Part shown: positions 19,454 through 31,967 of the stretch, in pieces
Numbering within the stretch: the stretch's first letter is position 1
Layout: each line of letters begins with the position of its first letter
Source of the DNA: Burkholderiales bacterium
Lineage (GTDB): Bacteria > Pseudomonadota > Gammaproteobacteria > Burkholderiales > Usitatibacteraceae
NCBI GenBank assembly: GCA_019634955.1
Contig: JAHCAK010000003.1
Coordinates: 1-64,000 of the forward strand
Reading direction: 5' to 3'
Length of the DNA: 64,000 nt
Notes under the pieces: model-generated
The model's database searches: none
What the model was told of the DNA's origin: nothing
The model's input: the letters and a program-made list of their open reading frames with translations, nothing else
Position numbers and translations under genes: made by a program

Positions 19454-20524
19454 TCAGCGCAGCGCCCGGGCGAGCCAGAGCGCGGCGGTGAGGACCACGA
19501 CCGCGCCGCCCTGGTGCGCCGCGCCGAGCCCGACGGGGACCACCATCAGCAGCGTGAGGACCCCGAGGACGACCTGCCCGAGCGTCGCCGCGGCGAGGAC
19601 CCACGCGGCCGTGCGCGCCTCCGGCGGGCACGCGCGGTCGGCGAGGACGCGCCAGGCGAGCAGCCAGGCGAAGGCGAGCACCACGAGCGCGAGCGTGCGG
19701 TGCACGAACTGCACCGTGGCCATGTTGTAGCCGAAGTTGCGCCACCACGGCTCGATGAGGAGGATCTCGGCCGGCACCCACTGCCCGTTCATGAGCGGCC
19801 AGGTGTTGTAGGCGAAGCCGGCGCGGATGCCCGCGACCAGCCCCCCGGTGAGCGCCATGGCGAAGACGAGCGCGGCGAACGCGAGCCCGGCCCGGCGCAG
19901 CCCCGCCGGCGCGCCCGAGGGGGCGGGCCGCAGGACCTGGTGCGCGACCCAGAACATCGCGGCGTGGATGAGGAGCGCCAGGCCCAGGTGCGCGGTGAGG
20001 CGGAACTGGCTCACCTGCGGATCGTCGACCAGCCCGCTCTTCACCATGTACCAGCCCATGGCCCCCTGCAGCCCCCCCAGCACGAAGATGCCGCCGAGCT
20101 TCGCGGCGAGCGGGCCGTCCAGCCGCCCGCGCGCCCAGAACCAGGCGAACGGCACGAAGTAGGCCACGCCGATGAGGCGCCCCAGCAGCCGGTGGAAGTA
20201 CTCCCACCAGAAGATGGACTTGAAGCCCTCGACGTCCATGTCGTGGTTGCGCAGCTTGAACTCGGGGGTGAGCTTGTACTTCTCGAACTGCGCGGCCCAG
20301 TCCGCGTCGTCGAGCGGCGGGATCGTGCCGATGAAGGGCTGCCACTCGACGATGGACAGGCCCGAGTGGGTGAGGCGCGTGACCCCGCCCACGACGACCA
20401 TGGCGAAGACGAGGGCGCAGCAGGCGAGCAGCCACGCGGCGACCGGCCGGCGGCCGGCGGCGGCCGCGGAAGGGGCGGTTCCCGCCCCGGGGGAAGCGAC
20501 GAGGGAGGCGTTCACGGGGGTCAT
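19454..20524 (-). CDS. ctaA: Heme A synthase (COX15/CtaA)
   Basis: This 356-aa membrane protein oxidises the C8 methyl of heme O to make heme A. It has about eight hydrophobic helices and the expected paired heme-ligand histidines: YFHRLLGR (near 109), AHLGLALLIH (near 179-186), FVHRTLAL (near 275) and AAHQGG (near 337). It also has the N-terminal VGGVTRLTHSGLSIVEW motif. It is transcribed away from the oxidase-like cluster and shares the 153-base divergent region holding a Crp/Fnr-type palindrome. Its presence implies that at least one heme-copper enzyme in the cell uses heme A. Confidence 0.93.
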   Translation of the reverse strand: MTPVNASLVASPGAGTAPSAAAAGRRPVAAWLLACCALVFAMVVVGGVTRLTHSGLSIVEWQPFIGTIPPLDDADWAAQFEKYKLTPEFKLRNHDMDVEGFKSIFWWEYFHRLLGRLIGVAYFVPFAWFWARGRLDGPLAAKLGGIFVLGGLQGAMGWYMVKSGLVDDPQVSQFRLTAHLGLALLIHAAMFWVAHQVLRPAPSGAPAGLRRAGLAFAALVFAMALTGGLVAGIRAGFAYNTWPLMNGQWVPAEILLIEPWWRNFGYNMATVQFVHRTLALVVLAFAWLLAWRVLADRACPPEARTAAWVLAAATLGQVVLGVLTLLMVVPVGLGAAHQGGAVVVLTAALWLARALR

Positions 20525-20882: not shown

Positions 20883-21437
20883 ATGACCGCCATCCACTCC
20901 CCCGCCCAGCGCGTCTGGTGGAAGCAGCCCCTGGACCGCGTCGAAGGCACCTGGATCGTCATCGCCTTCGTCTGGTGCCTGGTGATGTTCTTCATGATGC
21001 CGTACTGGCACATCTACGGTAAGCAGAACCTCTCCAACGAGGCCTACCGCACCACGCCCGAGGCCTACGTGGCGAAGACCCAGGCCATGGTGGACAAGTA
21101 CACCGTGCGCACCGCCACCGAGCAGAACATCCCGGTCGTGCACCCGGTGCCCGGCAGCGACGTCTACCTCATCGCCCGGCTCTGGAACTTCTGGCCCATC
21201 CTCGAGCTGGAGGAGGGCCAGACCTACAAGCTGCACATCATGTCGACCGACTGGCTGCACGGCTTCTCGCTGCAGCCCGAGAACATCAACGTGCAGATCC
21301 ACCCGGGCTACGAGCACGTGATGACCATCACGCCCACCAAGGAAGGCACGTACTCGATCATCTGCAACGAGTACTGCGGGATCAACCACCACACGATGGC
21401 GAGCAAGCTCTACGTCGTGAAGCCGAAGAAGAGCTAG
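20883..21437 (+). CDS. Heme-copper enzyme subunit II with CuA site
   Basis: This 184-aa protein has one N-terminal membrane helix (about 24-41) and a periplasmic cupredoxin domain. The CuA ligands are complete: H126 in DWLHGF, then C161-x3-C165-x3-H169-x2-M172 in CNEYCGINHHTM. The short length and single anchor helix match B-family (ba3-like) enzymes rather than aa3 oxidases. It would accept electrons from a soluble cytochrome c or cupredoxin and pass them to subunit I. It lies 12 bases before the subunit I gene. Confidence 0.92.
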   Translation: MTAIHSPAQRVWWKQPLDRVEGTWIVIAFVWCLVMFFMMPYWHIYGKQNLSNEAYRTTPEAYVAKTQAMVDKYTVRTATEQNIPVVHPVPGSDVYLIARLWNFWPILELEEGQTYKLHIMSTDWLHGFSLQPENINVQIHPGYEHVMTITPTKEGTYSIICNEYCGINHHTMASKLYVVKPKKS

Positions 21438-21449
21438 GGGGAGAGCGCC

Positions 21450-23171
21450 ATGGCCGTCAACCGCAATTTCCGCACCTGCCCGTCCACCGGCCTCGTCTAC
21501 CACGAGCCGGCCGAGAAGCTCATCCGCTGGAACGCCGTCGCGGGGGTGGTCTCGCTCCTCGTGGGCGGGGTCCTCGCGCTCCTGGTCACGCTCACGCGCT
21601 GGCCCGCGGTGAAGCTGCTGCCGCCCGACTGGTTCTACCTCGCGCTCACCGCGCACGGGCTGGACATGCTCGTCTTCTGGATCATCTTCTTCGAGATCGC
21701 GGTGCTCTACTTCGCGGCCTCGACGCTGCTCAAGTGCCGGCTGGCCACGCCCAAGGTCGCCTGGGCCGCCTTCTGGCTCATGATCGTCGGCGCGCTCATG
21801 AACAACTTCGCGGTGTTCAAGGGCGATTCCAGCGTCATGTTCACCTCCTACGTGCCGATGGGGGCCCACCCGCTGTTCTACCTCGGGCTCATCCTGTTCG
21901 CCGTCGGCGCGCTCATCGCCGTGTTCGTGTTCTTCGGCACGCTGGTCGTGGGCAAGGCCGAGAAGACCTACAACGGCTCGGTGCCGCTGGTGACCTTCGG
22001 CGCCATCACCGCGGCCATCATCGCCACCTTCACCATCGCCGCGGGCGCGATCATCCTCATCCCGACCTTCCTCTGGTCGGTGGGGCTGGTGAGCCACATC
22101 GACTCCCTCATGTACCGCACGGTGTGGTGGGGCTTCGGGCACTCCTCGCAGCAGATCAACGTCGCCGCCCACGTGTCGGTGTGGTACGCCATCGCCGCCA
22201 TCGTCTTCGGCGCCAAGCCGATGAGCGAGAAGGTGAGCCGCATGGCCTTCGTGCTCTACATCCTGTTCCTGCAGCTCGCGAGCGCGCACCACCTGCTCGC
22301 CGACCCGGGCCTCACCTCCAACTGGAAGATCTTCAACACCAGCTACGCCATGTACCTCGCCGTGCTCGCCTCCATGGTGCACGGGCTCACGGTGCCGGGC
22401 GCGATCGAGGTGGCCCAGCGCGAGAAGGGCTTCAACAAGGGCTTCTTCGAGTGGCTGCGCAAGGCCCCCTGGGGCAACCCCTGCTTCTCCGGGATGTTCA
22501 TCTCCCTCGTGGGCTTCGGCTTCCTGGGCGGCATCTCCGGGGTGATGATGGGCACCGAGCAGCTCAACCTCATCATCCACAACACCATCTACGTGCCGGG
22601 CCACTTCCATGCGACGGTCGTCGTGGGCACCACGCTCGCCTTCATGGCCCTCACCTACTTCCTCATCCCGACCCTCTTCCGCCGCGAGCTCATGTTCCCG
22701 GGGATGGCCAAGTGGCAGCCCTACGTCTACGGCCTGGGGATGTGCGCCTTCTCGGTCTTCATGATGGGCGCGGGGACGCTCGGCGTGCCGCGCCGGCACT
22801 GGGACATGGCCTTCTCGGGCGCGATCCTGCCGCACGAGTTCCCGGGCACGGCCTACCTGATGATGGGCATCATGGCCGTCTCGGGCATCGCCGCGGTCGT
22901 GGGCGGCGCGATGTACCTGCTGATCACCGTGGGCTCGGTGTTCTTCGGCAGGAAGATCGAGACGCCCGGCTTCAAGCGCGTGCCGGTGCGCGAAGGCATG
23001 GCCCCCCCGCCGGCTCCCGTGGCGGTGGCGCCGGCCGGGCACGGCGCGATCGGCCTGGGCGGGTTCGTCGCCCCCGGCACCTTCGTCCTGGCGATGATCT
23101 TCCTCGTGTCGTTCGTCCTCTACTACTTCGTCAACTGGAAGTACCTGTCGACCGTCTGGCCGATGAACTAG
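21450..23171 (+). CDS. B-family heme-copper subunit I lacking the active-site tyrosine
   Basis: This 573-aa polytopic protein has all six histidine ligands: H69 and H387 for the low-spin heme, H385 for the active-site heme, and H231, H280 and H281 for the second metal. The LADPG segment after the HH pair is B-family-like. Oxygen reductases of this type have GHPxVY with the tyrosine four residues after the first metal histidine. Here the sequence is GHSSQQ and position 235 is Gln. Nitric oxide reductases also lack this tyrosine. The enzyme may reduce NO or act unusually on oxygen. Its neighbours CtaB, Sco and a CuA subunit show it is a complete respiratory enzyme. Confidence 0.85.
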   Translation: MAVNRNFRTCPSTGLVYHEPAEKLIRWNAVAGVVSLLVGGVLALLVTLTRWPAVKLLPPDWFYLALTAHGLDMLVFWIIFFEIAVLYFAASTLLKCRLATPKVAWAAFWLMIVGALMNNFAVFKGDSSVMFTSYVPMGAHPLFYLGLILFAVGALIAVFVFFGTLVVGKAEKTYNGSVPLVTFGAITAAIIATFTIAAGAIILIPTFLWSVGLVSHIDSLMYRTVWWGFGHSSQQINVAAHVSVWYAIAAIVFGAKPMSEKVSRMAFVLYILFLQLASAHHLLADPGLTSNWKIFNTSYAMYLAVLASMVHGLTVPGAIEVAQREKGFNKGFFEWLRKAPWGNPCFSGMFISLVGFGFLGGISGVMMGTEQLNLIIHNTIYVPGHFHATVVVGTTLAFMALTYFLIPTLFRRELMFPGMAKWQPYVYGLGMCAFSVFMMGAGTLGVPRRHWDMAFSGAILPHEFPGTAYLMMGIMAVSGIAAVVGGAMYLLITVGSVFFGRKIETPGFKRVPVREGMAPPPAPVAVAPAGHGAIGLGGFVAPGTFVLAMIFLVSFVLYYFVNWKYLSTVWPMN

Positions 23172-23193: not shown

Positions 23194-24093
23194 ATGAACG
23201 AGGTTGTCGCCCCCGCCGGCTCGCTCGCCGGCCACGCAAGGCTCTTCTTCGACCTGTTCAAGCTGCGCATCGGGTTCGCGATCGGGCTCACCGCGCTCGC
23301 GGGGGCCCTCGCGGTCCCCGGGGCGGCGGTCTCCGCCGTGCAGGTGGCGGTGCTGGTGGCGTGCGTCGTCGCGGCCTCCGCCTCGGCCGGCGCGTTCAAC
23401 CAGTACGTGGAGCGCGACATCGACGCGCGCATGGCGCGCACGCGGCGCCGCGCCTTCGTCACCGGGCGGCTCGTCCACGGGCCGTTCTGGCTGGGTGTGA
23501 TCGGCCTCATGCTCGCGCTCGCGGTCTGCGCCGCCGCGGTCGCCGTGAACCCGCTCTCGGCCCTGTTCGTCTTCCTCGGGGCGTTCTTCTACGGGGTCGT
23601 CTACACGGTGATCCTCAAGCGCCGCACCTGGCTCAACATCGTGATCGGCGGGCTCGCCGGCAGCTTCGCCGTTCTCGCGGGCGCCACGGGCGTGGCCCCG
23701 GGCGAGATCGGCCCCGTGGCCCTGTCGCTCGCGTGGGTCCTGTTCCTCTGGACGCCGCCGCACTTCTGGAGCCTCGCCATCGCCTGCCACGACGACTACC
23801 GCGCCGCGGGCGTGCCGATGCTGCCGGTGGTGGTGGGCGACGCCCGCGCCGCGCGCGCCGTGCTCGGCGGCACGGTGGCGCTGGTCGCCTCCTCGTTCCT
23901 GCCGCTCGCCTTCGGGCTGGGCCCCCTTTACGCCGCCGGCGCCGCCGTCGGGGGCTTCCTCTTCGTCCGCGCGGCCTCGCGGCTGGCGGCCGCGCCTTCG
24001 CGCGAGACCGCCCTCGCGAGCTTCCACGCCTCGCTCGCCCAGCTCACGCTCCTCCTCGCCGGGGTGATCGCGGACGCGGCGTGGCGGGGCTAG
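23194..24093 (+). CDS. ctaB: Protoheme IX farnesyltransferase (heme O synthase)
   Basis: This 299-aa UbiA-type prenyltransferase adds a farnesyl chain to heme B to form heme O, the precursor used by CtaA. It has the first acidic motif region NQYVERDIDARMARTRRRA (about 68-86) and a second segment FLWTPPHFWSLAIACHDDYR (about 184-203), within about eight membrane helices. It lies 22 bases after subunit I, so its heme product probably serves that enzyme. The Sco gene begins immediately after. Confidence 0.94.
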   Translation: MNEVVAPAGSLAGHARLFFDLFKLRIGFAIGLTALAGALAVPGAAVSAVQVAVLVACVVAASASAGAFNQYVERDIDARMARTRRRAFVTGRLVHGPFWLGVIGLMLALAVCAAAVAVNPLSALFVFLGAFFYGVVYTVILKRRTWLNIVIGGLAGSFAVLAGATGVAPGEIGPVALSLAWVLFLWTPPHFWSLAIACHDDYRAAGVPMLPVVVGDARAARAVLGGTVALVASSFLPLAFGLGPLYAAGAAVGGFLFVRAASRLAAAPSRETALASFHASLAQLTLLLAGVIADAAWRG

Positions 24094-24939: not shown

Positions 24940-26877
24940 GTGCTTCGCCTCCTCCAGCGGTTCCTGCAGCGCCTGTTCCTGCTGGCCGAGCGCGCCGCCA
25001 ACGCCGTCTTCGGCGAGCGGCTGAACCCCCTCTACCACCTCGGGGCGCTCAGCTACTGGCTCTTCTGGGTCGTGGTCGCCACCGGGCTCTACCTCTACGC
25101 GTTCTTCGACACCAGCGTGACCGGGGCGTACGCCTCCGTCGAGCGGCTCACCCACGACCAGAAGTGGGCCGGCGGCATCATGAGGAGCCTGCACCGCTAT
25201 GCCTCCGACGGAATGGTGCTCACGATGGCGCTGCACCTCCTGCGCCACTTCGCGTTCGACCGCCACCGGGGGTTCCGCTGGTTCTCCTGGGTGAGCGGCG
25301 TGGTCGTGCTGTGGCTCGTGTACGCCTCCGGCATCAACGGCTACATGCTGCCCTGGGACCAGCTCGCGCAGTTCACCGTCACCGCCACGGCCGAGTGGTT
25401 CGACGCGCTGCCCGTGTTCAACGGGCTGCTCATCCGCAACTTCCTCACCGAGGAGAGCGTGAACGACCGCTTCTTCTCGCTGCTGTCCTTCCTGCACATC
25501 GGCCTGCCCCTGGGCGTGCTCGCGCTGCTCTGGATCCACACGCATCGCGTCCCGCAGGCGAAGACGACGCCGCCGCGCCCGCTCATGGCGGCGCTGGGCG
25601 CCGCGCTCGTGGCCCTGTCGGTCGTGAAGCCGGCCCTCAGCCAGGCGCCGGCGAACCTCGCCATGACCGCGACCTCCATCGGGTTCGACTGGTTCTACCT
25701 GCCCACCTACGCCCTGCTCTACGAGTGGTCGCCGGCCTCGCTCTGGGCCCTCACGGGCGGGCTCACGCTGCTCGCGGCGCTCGCGCCGTGGCTGCCGCCC
25801 AAGTTCGGCCGTCGCGCGCGGCGCAGCTTCCACGTGCTGGCCAACCCCGACAACCGCATCGTCGCGATGAAGGAGGACGAGACGCTGCTCGACGGCTGCC
25901 TGCGCGAGGGCCTGCCCATGCCCTTCGACTGCCGCAACGGCGGCTGCGGCGTGTGCAAGTGCACGGTGGAGCACGGCGAGGTGGCGCTGGGCCCCTACCA
26001 GGAAAGCGCGCTCACGGCCGGGGAGCGCCGCGCCGGCCGCGTGCTCGCCTGCGTCGCGAAGCCCCTCTCCGACGTGGAGATCACCTACGAGCCCGCCGGC
26101 GACGCCGCGCGGCCCGTGCAGGTGCACGAGGCGCGCGTGGCCGCCATGGACCGCCTCGCGCCCGACGTGATGCGCGTGCGCCTCGAGCTCCCGGGGGGCG
26201 AGCGGATGGCCTTCTACGCCGGCCAGTACATCAACATCCTGCTGGACGACGGGCAGAAGCGCGCCTTCTCCTTCGCGACGCCCCCGCACGAGGAGGGCCC
26301 CATCGAGCTGCACATCCGCCTCGTGGAGGGCGGGCGCTTCACCACCCACGTCTTCACCGCGATGAAGGTCGGCGACCGCGTCCGCTTCGAGGGGCCGGTG
26401 GGCTCCTTCTTCCTGCGCGAGGAGGGCGACAAGCCCGTGATCTTCGTGGCCGGCGCCACCGGCTTCGCGCCGGTGAAGAGCATGCTCGAGCACGCCTTCC
26501 ACGCCGGGATCTCGCGCCGGATGGTCCTCTACTGGGGCACGCGCACGCTGGCCGACATGTACCTGCGCGAGCTTCCGGAGCGCTGGGCGAAGGAGCACGC
26601 CAACTTCAGCTTCGTGCCCGTGCTCTCCGACCCGCGCCCCGAGGACGGGTGGCAGGGCCGCACGGGGCTCGTGCACGAGGCGATCCTCGCCGACTACCCC
26701 GACCTCGCCGGGCACCGCATCTACGCCTGCGGCTCGGTGGCGATGGTGCAGGCCGCGCAGCCCGCCTTCGCGCGGCAGGGGCTGTCGCCCGACGACTGCT
26801 TCTCCGACGCCTTCAGCCTCGCCCCGCGCATCCACGCCGAGGAAGCCGACCTCGTGCGGCTGGGAGGCCGGCCATGA
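24940..26877 (+). CDS. Cytochrome b / [2Fe-2S] ferredoxin / FAD-NAD(P) reductase fusion
   Basis: This 645-aa three-part fusion starts at GTG. Residues 1-290 are a compact cytochrome b with heme ligands H85, H99, H186 and H200, paired 14 apart, and a D250-W-F-Y-L motif resembling the quinol-site PEWY. Residues 293-388 are a plant-type ferredoxin with C331-x4-C336-x2-C339-x31-C371. Residues 393-640 are a ferredoxin-reductase module with the FAD motif RAFSFA (441-446), the nucleotide motif GATGFAP (505-511) and YACGS (595-599). It could move electrons between NAD(P)H and the quinone pool through the membrane. The direction is unknown. It overlaps the next gene by 4 bases. Confidence 0.88.
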   Translation: MLRLLQRFLQRLFLLAERAANAVFGERLNPLYHLGALSYWLFWVVVATGLYLYAFFDTSVTGAYASVERLTHDQKWAGGIMRSLHRYASDGMVLTMALHLLRHFAFDRHRGFRWFSWVSGVVVLWLVYASGINGYMLPWDQLAQFTVTATAEWFDALPVFNGLLIRNFLTEESVNDRFFSLLSFLHIGLPLGVLALLWIHTHRVPQAKTTPPRPLMAALGAALVALSVVKPALSQAPANLAMTATSIGFDWFYLPTYALLYEWSPASLWALTGGLTLLAALAPWLPPKFGRRARRSFHVLANPDNRIVAMKEDETLLDGCLREGLPMPFDCRNGGCGVCKCTVEHGEVALGPYQESALTAGERRAGRVLACVAKPLSDVEITYEPAGDAARPVQVHEARVAAMDRLAPDVMRVRLELPGGERMAFYAGQYINILLDDGQKRAFSFATPPHEEGPIELHIRLVEGGRFTTHVFTAMKVGDRVRFEGPVGSFFLREEGDKPVIFVAGATGFAPVKSMLEHAFHAGISRRMVLYWGTRTLADMYLRELPERWAKEHANFSFVPVLSDPRPEDGWQGRTGLVHEAILADYPDLAGHRIYACGSVAMVQAAQPAFARQGLSPDDCFSDAFSLAPRIHAEEADLVRLGGRP

Positions 26878-27374
26878 ACCGCCCGCTCGCCTGGGGCCTG
26901 CAGGCCGTCCTCTACGGCGCCTTCGCGGCGTTCCTCGGCTACTTCTCGACCTCGCCCGCCTTCGCGCCGCTGCCCCCGGACCACGCGCTGATCCGCCTGT
27001 CGCTCAATCACGCCGGCCAGCGCAAGTTCCCCTGCCGGACGCGCACCGCCGAGGAACTCGCCAAGCTCGCGCCCAACATGCGCGCCGCCGAGGACTGCCC
27101 GCGCGAGCGCGCCCCGGTGCGGGTGTCGGTGGAGCTCGACGGGCGCAGCGTGGCCGACATCGAGGCGAGGCCCGCGGGCCTTTCGCGCGACGGCGCCTCC
27201 GTCGCCTACCGGCGCATCCCCGTGCCCGCGGGCACGCACCGCCTGCGCGTGGCCCTGGCCGACGACGCGGCGGGCACCTTCGACCGCGTCCGCGAGGAAG
27301 CGGTGAGCCTGCCGCCCGGGCGCGTGCTGGTGATCGATTTCGAGCCCGGCAAGGGCGGGATCGTGCTGCGCTAG
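26874..27374 (+). CDS. Uncharacterised exported or membrane-anchored protein
   Basis: This 166-aa protein has an N-terminal hydrophobic segment (about 7-25), either an uncleaved anchor or a signal. The rest resembles a small beta-rich domain with two cysteines (FPCRTR near 43 and EDCPRE near 66). The ATG overlaps the stop of the cytochrome b/reductase fusion. I do not recognise the family. Its fixed place between the two cytochrome b fusions suggests a periplasmic partner or assembly factor for them. Confidence 0.72.
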   Translation: MNRPLAWGLQAVLYGAFAAFLGYFSTSPAFAPLPPDHALIRLSLNHAGQRKFPCRTRTAEELAKLAPNMRAAEDCPRERAPVRVSVELDGRSVADIEARPAGLSRDGASVAYRRIPVPAGTHRLRVALADDAAGTFDRVREEAVSLPPGRVLVIDFEPGKGGIVLR

Positions 27375-27399: not shown

Positions 27400-28986
27400 A
27401 TGGCCGCCCCCGCGATCGCCCTCCCCGCCCCCGGCCGCGCCGCCGCCGCCGTGGAGCGCGTCGACGCGCTCTTCGACGCCGCCTTCGGACAGGGGCTCAA
27501 TCCCCTGCGCCACCTCGGCGCCCTCGGCTACCACTTCCTGTGGATCTGCTGCGCCTCCGGCATCTGGATCTACGTGGGCTTCGACACCAGCGCCACGGGG
27601 GCCTGGGCCAGCCTCGACGCGATGGATCGCGGCGAGTGGCCGCTGGGCGCCTTCGCCCGCGCGCTGCACCGCTACAGCGCCGACGCCCTGGTGGTCGTGA
27701 CGCTGCTGCACCTCGCGCGCGAGGCCGCCCGGCGGCACTACGCCGCGTTCCGGCGCTTCGCCTGGCTCACGGGCCTCTTCGCCCTCGCGCTCCTGTTCCT
27801 CGCCGGCATCAACGGCTACTGGCTCGCCTGGGACCAGCTCGCGCAGTGGAGCCTCACCGCCACAATCGAGTGGCTCGACGCGCTGCCTGTCTTCGACGGG
27901 TCGCTCGCGCGCAACGTGATCGACGACGGGCAGGTGAACGACCGCTTCTTCTCGCTGCTCATCTTCGTGCACATCGGCCTGCCCCTCGCCCTGCTCGGCG
28001 CGCTCTGGGCGCACGTCCAGCGCGTGAGCCCGGCGCGCACGGCCCCGCCGCGGGCCCTCGGCTGGGGCACGGCCGCCATGCTCGCGGCGCTGTGCCTCGC
28101 CAAGCCCGTGGCGCTCATGCCCGCGGCGGATCTCGCCTTCCTCCCGGCGCGCATCCCCCTCGACTGGTTCTACCTGTTCCCCCACGTCGCCATGGCATCG
28201 CTGGGGCCGGCCGGCCTCTGGGCCGCAACGGCGGCGTTCTTCGCCGCCCTCGCGGCGCTTCCCTGGGCCACCCGCGTGCCGCGCGCGCCGGCCGCCCGCG
28301 TGAACCTCGCCAACTGCAACGGCTGCGCGCGCTGCTTCGCCGACTGCCCCTACGACGCCGTGGTGATGGTCGCGCGCACCGACGGCCGGCACCACCCGCG
28401 GCAGGCGCAAGTCGACCCGATGCTGTGCGCCGGCTGCGGCATCTGCACCGGCGCCTGCCCCTCCTCGACGCCCTTCCGCCGCGGCGAGACGCTCGCCACC
28501 GGTATCGACATGCCGCAGGCCGCCATCGGCGAGCTGCGCGCGCGGCTCGAGTCGCGCACCGCCGCGCTCACGGGCACTCCCCGCGTGGTGGTGCTGGGCT
28601 GCCGCTGGTCCGCGCCGGCGGCCACCCTCGAGGATGCCTCGACCGCCTGCGTGGAATTCCTCTGCGCAGCGATGGTGCCGCCCTCGTTCGTGGAGTACGC
28701 CCTGCGCGCCGGCGCCGACGGCGTGCTCCTCGCCGGCTGCCGCGAAGGCGATTGCGAATTCCGCACCGGCACCGCCCTCGCGGCCGAGCGGCTCGCCGGC
28801 GCGCGCAAGCCCGCCCTTCGGCCAAGCGTGCCGCGCGAGCGCGTGCGCCAGGTCCACGCCGGCATCACCGACGCCGCCGCGCTTCGCGCCGCGCTCGACG
28901 ACTTCCGCGCCGCGCTCGCCCGCCTGGGCCCGCGCGCGGCCGACCATCCCCATCCGCCCAAACGCCAGGAGTCGCGCCATGGCTAG
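27400..28986 (+). CDS. Cytochrome b / 2[4Fe-4S] / MvhD-like fusion
   Basis: This 528-aa fusion starts with the same cytochrome b type: ligands H90, H104, H191 and H205, and D255-W-F-Y-L. Two [4Fe-4S] motifs follow, C306-x2-C309-x2-C312-x3-C316 and C343-x2-C346-x2-C349-x3-C353. Residues 395-500 match the MvhD iron-sulfur subunit family, with C401, C417, C422, C447 and C452 in GCREGDCEFRTG. MvhD proteins link hydrogenases or dehydrogenases to heterodisulfide reductases. Fusion to cytochrome b suggests exchange of electrons between a low-potential partner and the quinone pool. It is a domain-shuffled paralogue of the fusion at 24940. Confidence 0.87.
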   Translation: MAAPAIALPAPGRAAAAVERVDALFDAAFGQGLNPLRHLGALGYHFLWICCASGIWIYVGFDTSATGAWASLDAMDRGEWPLGAFARALHRYSADALVVVTLLHLAREAARRHYAAFRRFAWLTGLFALALLFLAGINGYWLAWDQLAQWSLTATIEWLDALPVFDGSLARNVIDDGQVNDRFFSLLIFVHIGLPLALLGALWAHVQRVSPARTAPPRALGWGTAAMLAALCLAKPVALMPAADLAFLPARIPLDWFYLFPHVAMASLGPAGLWAATAAFFAALAALPWATRVPRAPAARVNLANCNGCARCFADCPYDAVVMVARTDGRHHPRQAQVDPMLCAGCGICTGACPSSTPFRRGETLATGIDMPQAAIGELRARLESRTAALTGTPRVVVLGCRWSAPAATLEDASTACVEFLCAAMVPPSFVEYALRAGADGVLLAGCREGDCEFRTGTALAAERLAGARKPALRPSVPRERVRQVHAGITDAAALRAALDDFRAALARLGPRAADHPHPPKRQESRHG

Positions 28987-30397
28987 CCTGCAAACCGCCA
29001 ACCCGTCCGCCGCCCTGCCCGCCGCCCGCCGCGCGGCCGGCACCTCCTTCATCCTGCCGGTCGAGCGCGACGCCTCGGCGCGCCTCGCCACCGGCTGGCT
29101 CGTCCTCGGCGTGGCCGCGCTCGTGGGCTCGGGGCTCTTCTCGGTGCTGCTCGTGCTCGCGCGCACCCCCGGGCTCAAGGAGCTCTTCCCGGTCGCGAAC
29201 TTCTTCCAGGTGGCGCTGGTGGCGCACGTGGACCTCTCCGTGCTGGTGTGGTTCCTCGCCTTCGCCGGCGTGCTGTGGAGCCTCGCCTGCGACGGCCGCG
29301 CCCTCGTGCTGGGATGGGCCTCGCTCGCCCTCACGGCCGCGGGCACGCTCGCCCTGTGCGTGGCCCCGCTGCTTCGCGACGCCGTGCCGGTGCTCGCCAA
29401 CTACATTCCCGTGATCGACAACACGGCGTTCCTCGCCGGGCTCGGCGCCATCGGCGCGGGCGTGGCCCTCGCGGTGGCCCGCACGTTCGTGGCCACCCGG
29501 TCGTCGGGCGGCGTGCTCGACGGGGCCTCGGCGCTGCGCTGGGGCATCGTCGGCTCGGCGGTGGCCACGGCCGTGGCGCTCGCCGCCTTCGGGTGGTCGT
29601 GGCTGGAGATCTCGCCGCACCTCGAGCGCAAGACCTACTTCGAGCTGCTCTTCTGGGGCGGCGGCCACGTCCTGCAGTTCACCTGGACGCTCCTCATGCT
29701 GGCCGGCTGGCTGTGGCTCGCCTCGGCCCTCGGGCTCGCCGTGCCGCTCTCCCCGCGCGTGGCGCTCCTCGTCTTCACGATCGCGCTCGCCTCCGTGTTC
29801 GTGACCCCGGCGATCTACCTGTCCCACCCCGTGGCCTCGGTCGAGCACCACAAGCTGCAGACCTGGCTCATGCGCTTCGGCGGCGGGCTCGCCATCCCGC
29901 CCATCCTGCTCGCGCTGCTGTGGTCGATGCGGGGCCTGCGCGCGCTCGACGCGGAGCGCCGCCCGATCTTCGGCGCGCTGGCCGCCTCCATCGGCCTCTT
30001 CGCCGCCGGCGGCCTCATCGGCTTCGCCATCAACGGGCCCAACGTGCGCATCCCGGCTCACTACCACGGCTGCATCGTCGGCGTGACGCTCGCCTTCATG
30101 GGGCTCACCTACCACCTGCTGCCGAGGCTCGGCTTCGCCACGCCGCGCTCGCGGCTGGCGGCATGGCAGCCCTGGCTCTACGGCGGCGGCCAGCTCATGC
30201 ACATCGTGGGCCTGGTGTGGTCGGGCGGCTACGGCGTCGAGCGCAAGGTGGCCGGCGCGGCGCAGGTGCTGCGCACGCCGCAGGAAGTGGCCGGCATGGG
30301 GCTCATGGGCCTGGGCGGCCTCGTCGCCATCCTCGGCGGCCTCGCTTTCGTGGTGGTGGTGATCGGGGCCATGCGCCGGCAGGAGGCCCGCGGGTGA
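28979..30397 (+). CDS. Second heme-copper subunit I-like protein, also without tyrosine
   Basis: This 472-aa polytopic protein carries all six histidines: H83, H230 in FWGGGH, H290-H291, and H361 and H363 in PAHYHG. The residue four after H230 is F234, not Tyr. I also see no tyrosine at the helix VII position used by cbb3 oxidases. Both subunit I proteins here have a tyrosine ten residues before the HH pair (Y280 here, Y270 in the other). There is no CuA partner; it is flanked by the cytochrome b/MvhD fusion (8-base overlap) and a polytopic protein (GTGA overlap). A quinol- or ferredoxin-linked NO reductase is possible. Confidence 0.82.
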   Translation: MASLQTANPSAALPAARRAAGTSFILPVERDASARLATGWLVLGVAALVGSGLFSVLLVLARTPGLKELFPVANFFQVALVAHVDLSVLVWFLAFAGVLWSLACDGRALVLGWASLALTAAGTLALCVAPLLRDAVPVLANYIPVIDNTAFLAGLGAIGAGVALAVARTFVATRSSGGVLDGASALRWGIVGSAVATAVALAAFGWSWLEISPHLERKTYFELLFWGGGHVLQFTWTLLMLAGWLWLASALGLAVPLSPRVALLVFTIALASVFVTPAIYLSHPVASVEHHKLQTWLMRFGGGLAIPPILLALLWSMRGLRALDAERRPIFGALAASIGLFAAGGLIGFAINGPNVRIPAHYHGCIVGVTLAFMGLTYHLLPRLGFATPRSRLAAWQPWLYGGGQLMHIVGLVWSGGYGVERKVAGAAQVLRTPQEVAGMGLMGLGGLVAILGGLAFVVVVIGAMRRQEARG

Positions 30398-31203
30398 GGC
30401 AGCCGGACCGTCACGCGCGGTCGCTTGCCGCCACCGCGGCGGCCTGCGCCGCCCTCGTGCTCGTGGTCGTGGCCTCCAGCGCGTGGCTGCGGCTCGCCGC
30501 GCCCGCCTGCCCGCCCGGCGGCTGCGAGGGATTCGCCCTGGCCGACGCCGTGCGGCTCGCGCACCGGATCGCCGCGATGGGCGTCACCGTGGCCGCCCTC
30601 GTCCTCGTCGCGCTGGCGTGGAAGCCGCCGGCGCGGTGGGGGATGCGCGCCGCCGCGGTGCTCGTGCTGCTGCTGGTGGCCGCCCTGGCGATCGTGGGGC
30701 GCCGCTCCGCCGGCGCGGCGCCACCGGCCGTCCTGCTCGCCAACCTGCTGGGTGGGCTCACCCTGCTGGGCCTGGCCGTCGGCCTCGCGACGGCCGCCCG
30801 CGCCGGGCCCGGGCCCGTGCGGGGCGCCCCCCTCGTGGCCGCGACGATCCTCGCCGCCGCGATCGCCACCGGCGCCTTGCTCGCCACCGCCGCACCGGCC
30901 GATCCGGCGGCGCTCGCCCTCGCGCACCGCGGCCTGGCGTGGGCCGCGCTCGTCGCCTGGGGGCTGCTCGCCCTCGGCACCGGGCGGCCGCGCGGGGAGC
31001 GCCTGGCGGCAGGCACGGTCGCGGCCCTGCTCGCCACCGAGGCGGTGCTCGCCATCGCCGCGCCGGCGAGCCCGTCCCTGCGCTGGCTGCACAACCTCCT
31101 CTCGACGGCGGCGATGTGCGCGGCCATCGCCTGCGCAGCCGGCTGCGGGGCGCCGTCGCCACGGGCCGCGGACGGGCCGCGCGAGGCGCTCGCGAGGCCC
31201 TGA
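30394..31203 (+). CDS. Polytopic membrane protein, weakly CtaA/COX15-like
   Basis: This 269-aa protein starts with GTG overlapping the previous stop (GTGA). It has about eight hydrophobic segments. WLRLAAPACPPGGC followed by LAHRIAAMG is reminiscent of the VRLxGxGLxCPDWPxC and histidine region of heme A synthases. A late histidine pair, LAHRGLAW and RWLHNLLS, could also bind heme. The match is too weak to call an enzyme. It may handle heme for, or be a subunit of, the second heme-copper protein. Confidence 0.6.
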   Translation: MRQPDRHARSLAATAAACAALVLVVVASSAWLRLAAPACPPGGCEGFALADAVRLAHRIAAMGVTVAALVLVALAWKPPARWGMRAAAVLVLLLVAALAIVGRRSAGAAPPAVLLANLLGGLTLLGLAVGLATAARAGPGPVRGAPLVAATILAAAIATGALLATAAPADPAALALAHRGLAWAALVAWGLLALGTGRPRGERLAAGTVAALLATEAVLAIAAPASPSLRWLHNLLSTAAMCAAIACAAGCGAPSPRAADGPREALARP

Positions 31204-31220: not shown

Positions 31221-31967
31221 ATGGGCGAAACATCCGCCCAAGACCCCGCCGTCATGCAACCCGGAGAAGCTCGGCCCCGCGGACCGGACATCCCGGTCGA
31301 GCAGTTCCTCGTCAACCTTCCGCTCTTCAGCGACCTCACGCCCGAGGAGATCAAGCGCATCGCCGCCGGCACGCGCCGCATCTACGCGACCAAGGGCGAT
31401 GCGCTCTTCTCGCGGGGCGAGCGCTGCGAGGGCTTCCACGTGGTGCTGTACGGGCAGGTGAAGCTCTTCGTCACCTCGCCCCAGGGCTCCGAGAAGGTGA
31501 TCGAGATCATGGGCCCCGGCATCTCCTTCGGCGAGGCGATCCTCTTCATGGACATCCCCTACGTCGTGTCGGCGCAGGCCCTCAAGGACTCGCTCCTGCT
31601 GCACGTGTCGAAGGCCGTCGTCTTCGAGGAGATCGAGCGCGACCCGCGCCTCGCCCGGCGCCTGCTCGCCGGGATGTCGCGCAAGCTCCACCAGCTCATC
31701 CGCGACGTCGAGGCCTACTCCCTGCGCTCGGGGCTGGAGCGCGTGATCGGCTACCTGCTTCGCGACGACGCGCTCGACCAGGGCGCGGCCAACGCGGCGA
31801 GCGTGACGCTGCCGGCCAACAAGATGATCGTGGCCTCGCGGCTGAACCTCACGCCCGAGTACTTCTCGCGCATCCTGCACGAGCTGGCCGACGCCGGCCT
31901 CATCGTCATGGAAGGCCGGTCGGTGACGGTGCCCGACGTCGAGCGGCTTCGCACCTACACCGGCTGA
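31221..31967 (+). CDS. Crp/Fnr-family regulator, DNR-like
   Basis: This 248-aa regulator has a cyclic-nucleotide-type sensory domain (about 30-150) and a winged helix-turn-helix (about 175-240, RLNLTPEYFSRILHELADAG). No N-terminal cysteine cluster is present, so it is not an oxygen-sensing FNR. The segments EAILFMDIPYVVSAQAL and MSRKLHQLIRDVEAYSL strongly resemble DNR proteins, which sense NO through heme. ATG 31221 is used, with GGGG seven bases before; ATG 31254 is an alternative. It is the probable reader of the palindrome at 20579. Confidence 0.85.
   Translation: MGETSAQDPAVMQPGEARPRGPDIPVEQFLVNLPLFSDLTPEEIKRIAAGTRRIYATKGDALFSRGERCEGFHVVLYGQVKLFVTSPQGSEKVIEIMGPGISFGEAILFMDIPYVVSAQALKDSLLLHVSKAVVFEEIERDPRLARRLLAGMSRKLHQLIRDVEAYSLRSGLERVIGYLLRDDALDQGAANAASVTLPANKMIVASRLNLTPEYFSRILHELADAGLIVMEGRSVTVPDVERLRTYTG

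Follow-up and report, generated by a model that had tools for sequence, protein, structure and literature searches.

A cytochrome b fused to an MvhD-type iron-sulfur module is encoded in proteobacterial eNOR operons and may serve their electron supply

The window analyzed here is a stretch of 64,000 nucleotides; coordinates are positions within it, and residues and ligands are numbered on each protein. It carries eight genes between positions 20883 and 30397 that are separated by intergenic gaps of -8 to +25 bp (Table 1). In order, they encode a CuA subunit II, a heme-copper subunit I, a heme o synthase, an SCO protein, a cytochrome b with a FAD/NAD(P)H reductase tail (the FNR paralogue), a small protein, a cytochrome b with an iron-sulfur tail (the fusion), and a second heme-copper subunit. 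A short CtaA/COX15-like frame giving a weak partial profile match also occurs at 30430-31203, the full-length CtaA gene being the one at 19454.

Table 1. Features of the eNOR operon and its surroundings in the window
Feature	Position	Strand	Basis
Heme A synthase CtaA, transcribed away from the operon	19454..20524	-	
eNOR subunit II, CuA-type ligands C161, E163, C165, H169	20883..21437	+	
Heme-copper subunit I of eNOR type; H231-x3-Q235 replaces H-x3-Y	21450..23171	+	definition PMC8756737
Heme o synthase CtaB/CyoE	23194..24093	+	
SCO-type copper assembly protein, C-terminal hydrophobic helix	24111..24929	+	
FNR paralogue: same cytochrome b + [2Fe-2S] ferredoxin + FAD/NAD(P)H reductase	24940..26877	+	
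Small protein with a single TM helix at the N-terminus, a beta-sandwich and two invariant Cys	26874..27374	+	
Fusion: cytochrome b (residues 18-295) + two [4Fe-4S] (306-353) + MvhD/FlpD (about 396-512)	27400..28986	+	
Diverged Qo motif LDWF of the fusion (residues 254-257), at the bc1 PEWY position	28159..28170	+	profile alignment
Second heme-copper subunit I, divergent, with HVLQF and lacking Tyr	28979..30397	+	
Crp/Fnr-family protein, candidate operon regulator	31221..31967	+	

The fusion is encoded by an intact frame of 528 amino acids, in which a six-helix bc1-like cytochrome b is followed by two [4Fe-4S] motifs and then by an MvhD/FlpD domain. The leading Pfam families over cut-off are Cytochrome_B (residues 37-206), paired 4Fe-4S domains (299-356) and FlpD/MvhD (PF02662, residues 414-510, 62.2 bits for a cut-off of 22.3); the two C-x2-C-x2-C-x3-C motifs are formed by C306/309/312/316 and C343/346/349/353. 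These matches bear out the architecture that a preliminary description had read from the letters, as well as its identification of the 24940 product as a cytochrome b paralogue, to which Pfam assigns a cytochrome b, a plant-type [2Fe-2S] domain and a FAD/NAD(P) reductase. The best NCBIfam match for the tail of the fusion is HdrA2, whose C-terminal module (positions 570-774 of 777) aligns with residues 297-512; the tail likewise matches MvhD of the solved Hdr-Mvh complexes. Unlike HdrA and HdrA2, the tail has no FAD-binding core and is joined to a membrane cytochrome. An AlphaFold2 model built with 60 homologues (mean pLDDT 88.9, pTM 0.86) aligns over residues 18-295 with bc1 cytochrome b (Z 22-25, about 258 residues). 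Among the structural matches listed, all fall to this cytochrome half, and the fold of the tail therefore rests on sequence.

The neighboring genes point to an NO reductase. The eNOR family is defined by a glutamine in place of the cross-linked tyrosine of subunit I and by a cupredoxin subunit II (PMC8756737), and both subunits of the window satisfy this published residue definition. In an alignment with a ba3 oxidase, H-S-S-Q-Q of subunit I replaces the H-P-x-V-Y of oxidases, and Q235 is invariant in 30 sequences that include those of Thermus and Thermomicrobium. Since these residues match the definition, subunits I and II are predicted to have NO reductase activity. The second heme-copper subunit I, which accompanies eNOR in most betaproteobacterial loci, keeps H230, Q233 and F234 in 49/49 sequences with no tyrosine and has no NCBIfam match; its product is possibly another NO reductase-like enzyme. 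No Rieske protein or CxxCH protein is found among the proteins encoded by the operon. The small protein, which belongs to no Pfam family, was considered as a hidden Rieske protein or cytochrome and rejected, its model consisting of a TM helix and a beta-sandwich only; the best structural match (Z 10) is the luminal domain of HGSNAT, and none gives a convincing functional match.

Scanning named genomes yielded 192 confirmed relatives of the fusion, which establishes that the joining of cytochrome b to an Fe-S/MvhD tail is real and not due to chance. The relatives listed come from alpha-, beta- or gammaproteobacterial records or from unspecified proteobacterial ones, and the best 80 of the 192 were retained for named-locus analyses. 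The four heme histidines (H90, H104, H191 and H205) are invariant in 99/99 sequences. Nine of the twelve cluster cysteines are also invariant in these 99 sequences, and the other three (C343, C346 and C349) are Cys in 98/99, the remaining row having a gap or X. Neither of the two outcomes named in the preliminary description as telling against it, absence of the fusion from every relative or loss of the cysteines in close homologues, occurred: the fusion is widespread, and a substituted cluster cysteine is seen in 0 of 99 homologues. That description had counted five MvhD-type cysteines. Four of them (C401, C422, C447 and C452) are conserved in 99/99 sequences and are potential ligands of a [2Fe-2S] cluster; the fifth position (C417) holds Cys in 2/80 sequences and drops out. 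Selenocysteine was considered for an in-frame TGA in seven genomes of genus g365 and rejected, as this codon is an ordinary C-terminal stop.

The cytochrome half shares helices A-F, the four heme histidines, the cd and ef loops and the position of the Qo motif with bc1/b6f cytochrome b. It differs in having no helices G/H (the match to bc1 stops at helix F, near residue 295), in missing the long helix D-E segment, in carrying an Fe-S tail after helix F, and in being encoded in an operon without a Rieske protein or c-type cytochrome. It also has LDWF instead of PEWY/PVWY: in a profile alignment LDWF falls opposite PVWY in the bc1 cytochrome b encoded in the same genome. D255 is kept in 97/99 sequences and W256 in 99/99, and DWF occurs in 50/50 sequences of the FNR paralogue. 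In bc complexes PEWY marks the Qo motif, and both the cofactor potentials and the type of quinone are correlated with its second residue (PMC9162462). The diverged motif, as judged from its sequence, supports a putative link to quinone. A Qo-like site in an operon devoid of c-type cytochromes would be compatible with a quinol dehydrogenase subunit that supplies eNOR from the quinone pool, the Fe-S/MvhD tail being a redox or NO sensor or a regulatory dock. We consider this very unlikely: all twelve cluster cysteines are kept and the sister protein bears a catalytic NAD(P)H-reductase tail, both of which argue for electron transfer by the tail.

The fusion is closely linked to eNOR. The eNOR subunit I gene is visible in 69/80 named loci, always on the same strand as the fusion, the two starts being separated by 2.6-8.2 kb; in the remaining 11/80 the fusion starts less than 4.5 kb from the start of the available locus sequence. 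The small protein accompanies the fusion in 85/89 loci examined. In a class-level sample of 369 genomes, 34 carry eNOR, 34 the fusion and 33 both (33/35 of those holding either); in a phylum-level sample of 398 genomes the corresponding numbers are 30, 34 and 29 (29/35). The window's own genome is included in both samples, and because the sampled genomes are related the Fisher p values (about 1e-44 and 1e-37, respectively) are only descriptive. The discordant genomes show contig ends or, in all but one case, are at most 82% complete. eNOR is seen without the fusion in G291, where the contig stops 24 bases past the match, and in G453, where it stops about 1.2 kb past CtaB. The fusion is seen without eNOR in G242, G500, G516, G604 and G655 (completeness 69-82%) and in G524 (completeness 96%, contamination 6%). 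G431 has the fusion and the small protein away from eNOR and beside nirS, a gene also present in the window's genome.

Several further features of these loci were recorded. The majority of loci are metagenome-assembled. Hemerythrin and NnrS genes occur near the fusion in other loci, and a hemerythrin-family gene adjoins the small protein in L121:14526-14930 and L103:7263-7703; members of a cluster of such genes occur in 16 named loci. L157, L158 and L161 (genomes G579, G515 and G655) each carry the fusion twice in tandem, all ligands being kept, and G604, from the same family, has two adjacent fusion matches. One record titled Lysobacter sp. (L031, JAMPXV010000092.1) has an operon 69-95% identical to that of the apparently betaproteobacterial window and is probably a mislabelled MAG.

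This linkage bears on whether the protein could be an oxidoreductase that passes electrons from a low-potential donor to the general quinone pool, its tie to eNOR being regulatory and involving no complex. The Qo-like site and the presumably cytosolic Fe-S tail would suit such a role, the genome's bc1 cytochrome b could pass quinol electrons on, and in one genome group the fusion/small-protein pair and eNOR are on different contigs; a near-perfect co-occurrence and a shared operon with eNOR nevertheless exceed what a general quinone reductase would need, and we regard this role as unlikely. eNOR is the likely terminal acceptor for the fusion. Of four eNOR plasmid records (Defluviimonas, Thermus, Thermomicrobium and Haloarcula), the fusion is present in the proteobacterial one only. 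The loci of the Thermus, Thermomicrobium and Haloarcula plasmids have no cytochrome b near eNOR, unlike the eight-gene operon with cytochrome b modules described here, which indicates that eNOR in general does not need a cytochrome b.

Among loci showing eNOR, the FNR paralogue is present in 47/47 betaproteobacterial, 0/12 alphaproteobacterial and 1/10 other loci; as this set was gathered via the fusion, presence of the latter is by construction. One genome found via the FNR form (G022) has an eNOR locus with that form and no fusion match there. In a quick tree rooted on bc1 and computed without bootstrap, sequences of the FNR form branch from within those of the MvhD form, with an SH-aLRT value of 99 for the inclusive node, from which the MvhD tail is probably the older of the two. 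The distribution of the FNR form and the FNR-only eNOR locus of G022 suggest that cytosolic modules are interchangeable on one shared membrane cytochrome scaffold, on which one seems to have replaced the other. In a Nitrosomonadales MAG (L087:10001-11527), an MvhD-tailed protein groups with FNR-type cytochrome heads, as if a tail or a head had been exchanged once more.

MvhD normally bridges to heterodisulfide reductase-type complexes. An HdrABC/Flx partner was considered and rejected: the window's genome, which is 96% complete, has no HdrA and no second MvhD. The fusion gene is the only match to the FlpD profile in this genome, and the HdrA2 profile matches the fusion tail and short generic ferredoxin or FAD segments. 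The lack of an Hdr-type partner reported for the window thus extends to the genome. CCG domains are found at 11 places in it, and this domain is common in control genomes. A donor was also sought among the conserved neighbors of the fusion, in which the clustered unassigned frames are SCO-like, hemerythrin, CtaA-like, unannotated or out-of-frame, with no flavoprotein.

We propose that the fusion serves proteobacterial eNOR as a dedicated electron-transfer subunit, probably carrying electrons from a cytosolic donor to the periplasmic side, a reading in which we place about as much belief as doubt. It rests on the observed domain architecture, the conservation of cofactor ligands, the linkage to eNOR both in the operon and across genomes, and the diverged Qo motif. 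The Fe-S/MvhD tail would be cytosolic, since the TM helix that precedes it (F) ends on the heme bH side of the membrane, as given by helices B and D. Homology and the paralogue's NAD(P)H-binding tail lead one to expect that this side faces the cytosol. A soluble reduced carrier (a ferredoxin or an NAD(P)H-linked flavoprotein) may dock at the MvhD [2Fe-2S] cluster, from which electrons would pass through the two [4Fe-4S] clusters to heme bH (H104/H205) and heme bL (H90/H191). They would leave on the periplasmic side via the Qo-like site, where a bound quinone may act as a relay, and reach the CuA of eNOR, which would reduce 2 NO to N2O; the FNR paralogue would offer the same route with its NAD(P)H-reductase tail. 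The preliminary description had seen here a quinone-linked port for a low-potential soluble donor. A port for a cytosolic donor is still the leading reading and the Qo motif supports a putative link to quinone; what had been overlooked is the eNOR operon as the likely terminal acceptor.

The direction of flow deserves consideration. Flow toward the periplasm would be energetically easy, yet it would discharge the membrane potential, which makes a conduit look wasteful; the opposite course, from quinol to the cytosol, would be energy-conserving, yet it would need bifurcation. The protein could then work in reverse, with quinol being oxidized at the Qo-like site. One electron would go to the CuA of eNOR and NO, and the other would pass bL, then bH and the Fe-S chain, ending on ferredoxin in the MvhD form or on NAD(P)+ in the FNR form. 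The near-invariant Qo Asp and Trp of both paralogues, a cytochrome fold kept through helix F and a high-potential acceptor encoded alongside would fit such a machine, as would the helix D-E segment, which is short and outside the bc1 alignment, so that the Qi site may have been replaced by an Fe-S exit. With ubiquinone and an ordinary CuA potential, however, NAD+ and ferredoxin would hardly be within reach of the low branch, and there is no Rieske protein to accept the first electron. We therefore think bifurcation improbable, and give slightly less credence still to the specific proposal that a Rieske-free cytochrome b bifurcates quinol coupled to NO reduction and yields reductant from denitrification.

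A 2006 EBPR metagenome paper reportedly described in Accumulibacter a 'novel cytochrome' in which a b/b6 cytochrome is fused to NAD(P)/flavin domains. Its architecture would be like that of the paralogue at 24940, and its tail unlike that of the MvhD fusion. PMC2289847 makes passing mention of a novel cytochrome. The open literature covered here, a scope outside which recent work on NOR diversity lies, concerned MvhD together with cytochrome b, an NO reductase together with MvhD or cytochrome b6, and eNOR together with ferredoxin and cytochrome b; judged by titles, abstracts and selected passages, none of the papers listed describes the fusion, and the novelty of the association is accordingly provisional.

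Our findings bear on how electrons reach alternative NO reductases. The linkage between the fusion and eNOR suggests an undescribed route that feeds cytosolic electrons to an enzyme converting NO to N2O, with a methanogen-type Fe-S connector joined by a cytochrome b to an NO reductase. If true, this would be a direct cytosol-to-NO route that bypasses bc1 or, with bifurcation, a new quinone-bifurcating machine. Subunit I of eNOR often carries a cytochrome oxidase annotation, and the fusion together with the small anchored protein provides a marker for proteobacterial eNOR operons. The eNOR genes are present in many Alpha-, Beta- and Gammaproteobacteria, here often MAGs, and their hosts may make N2O.
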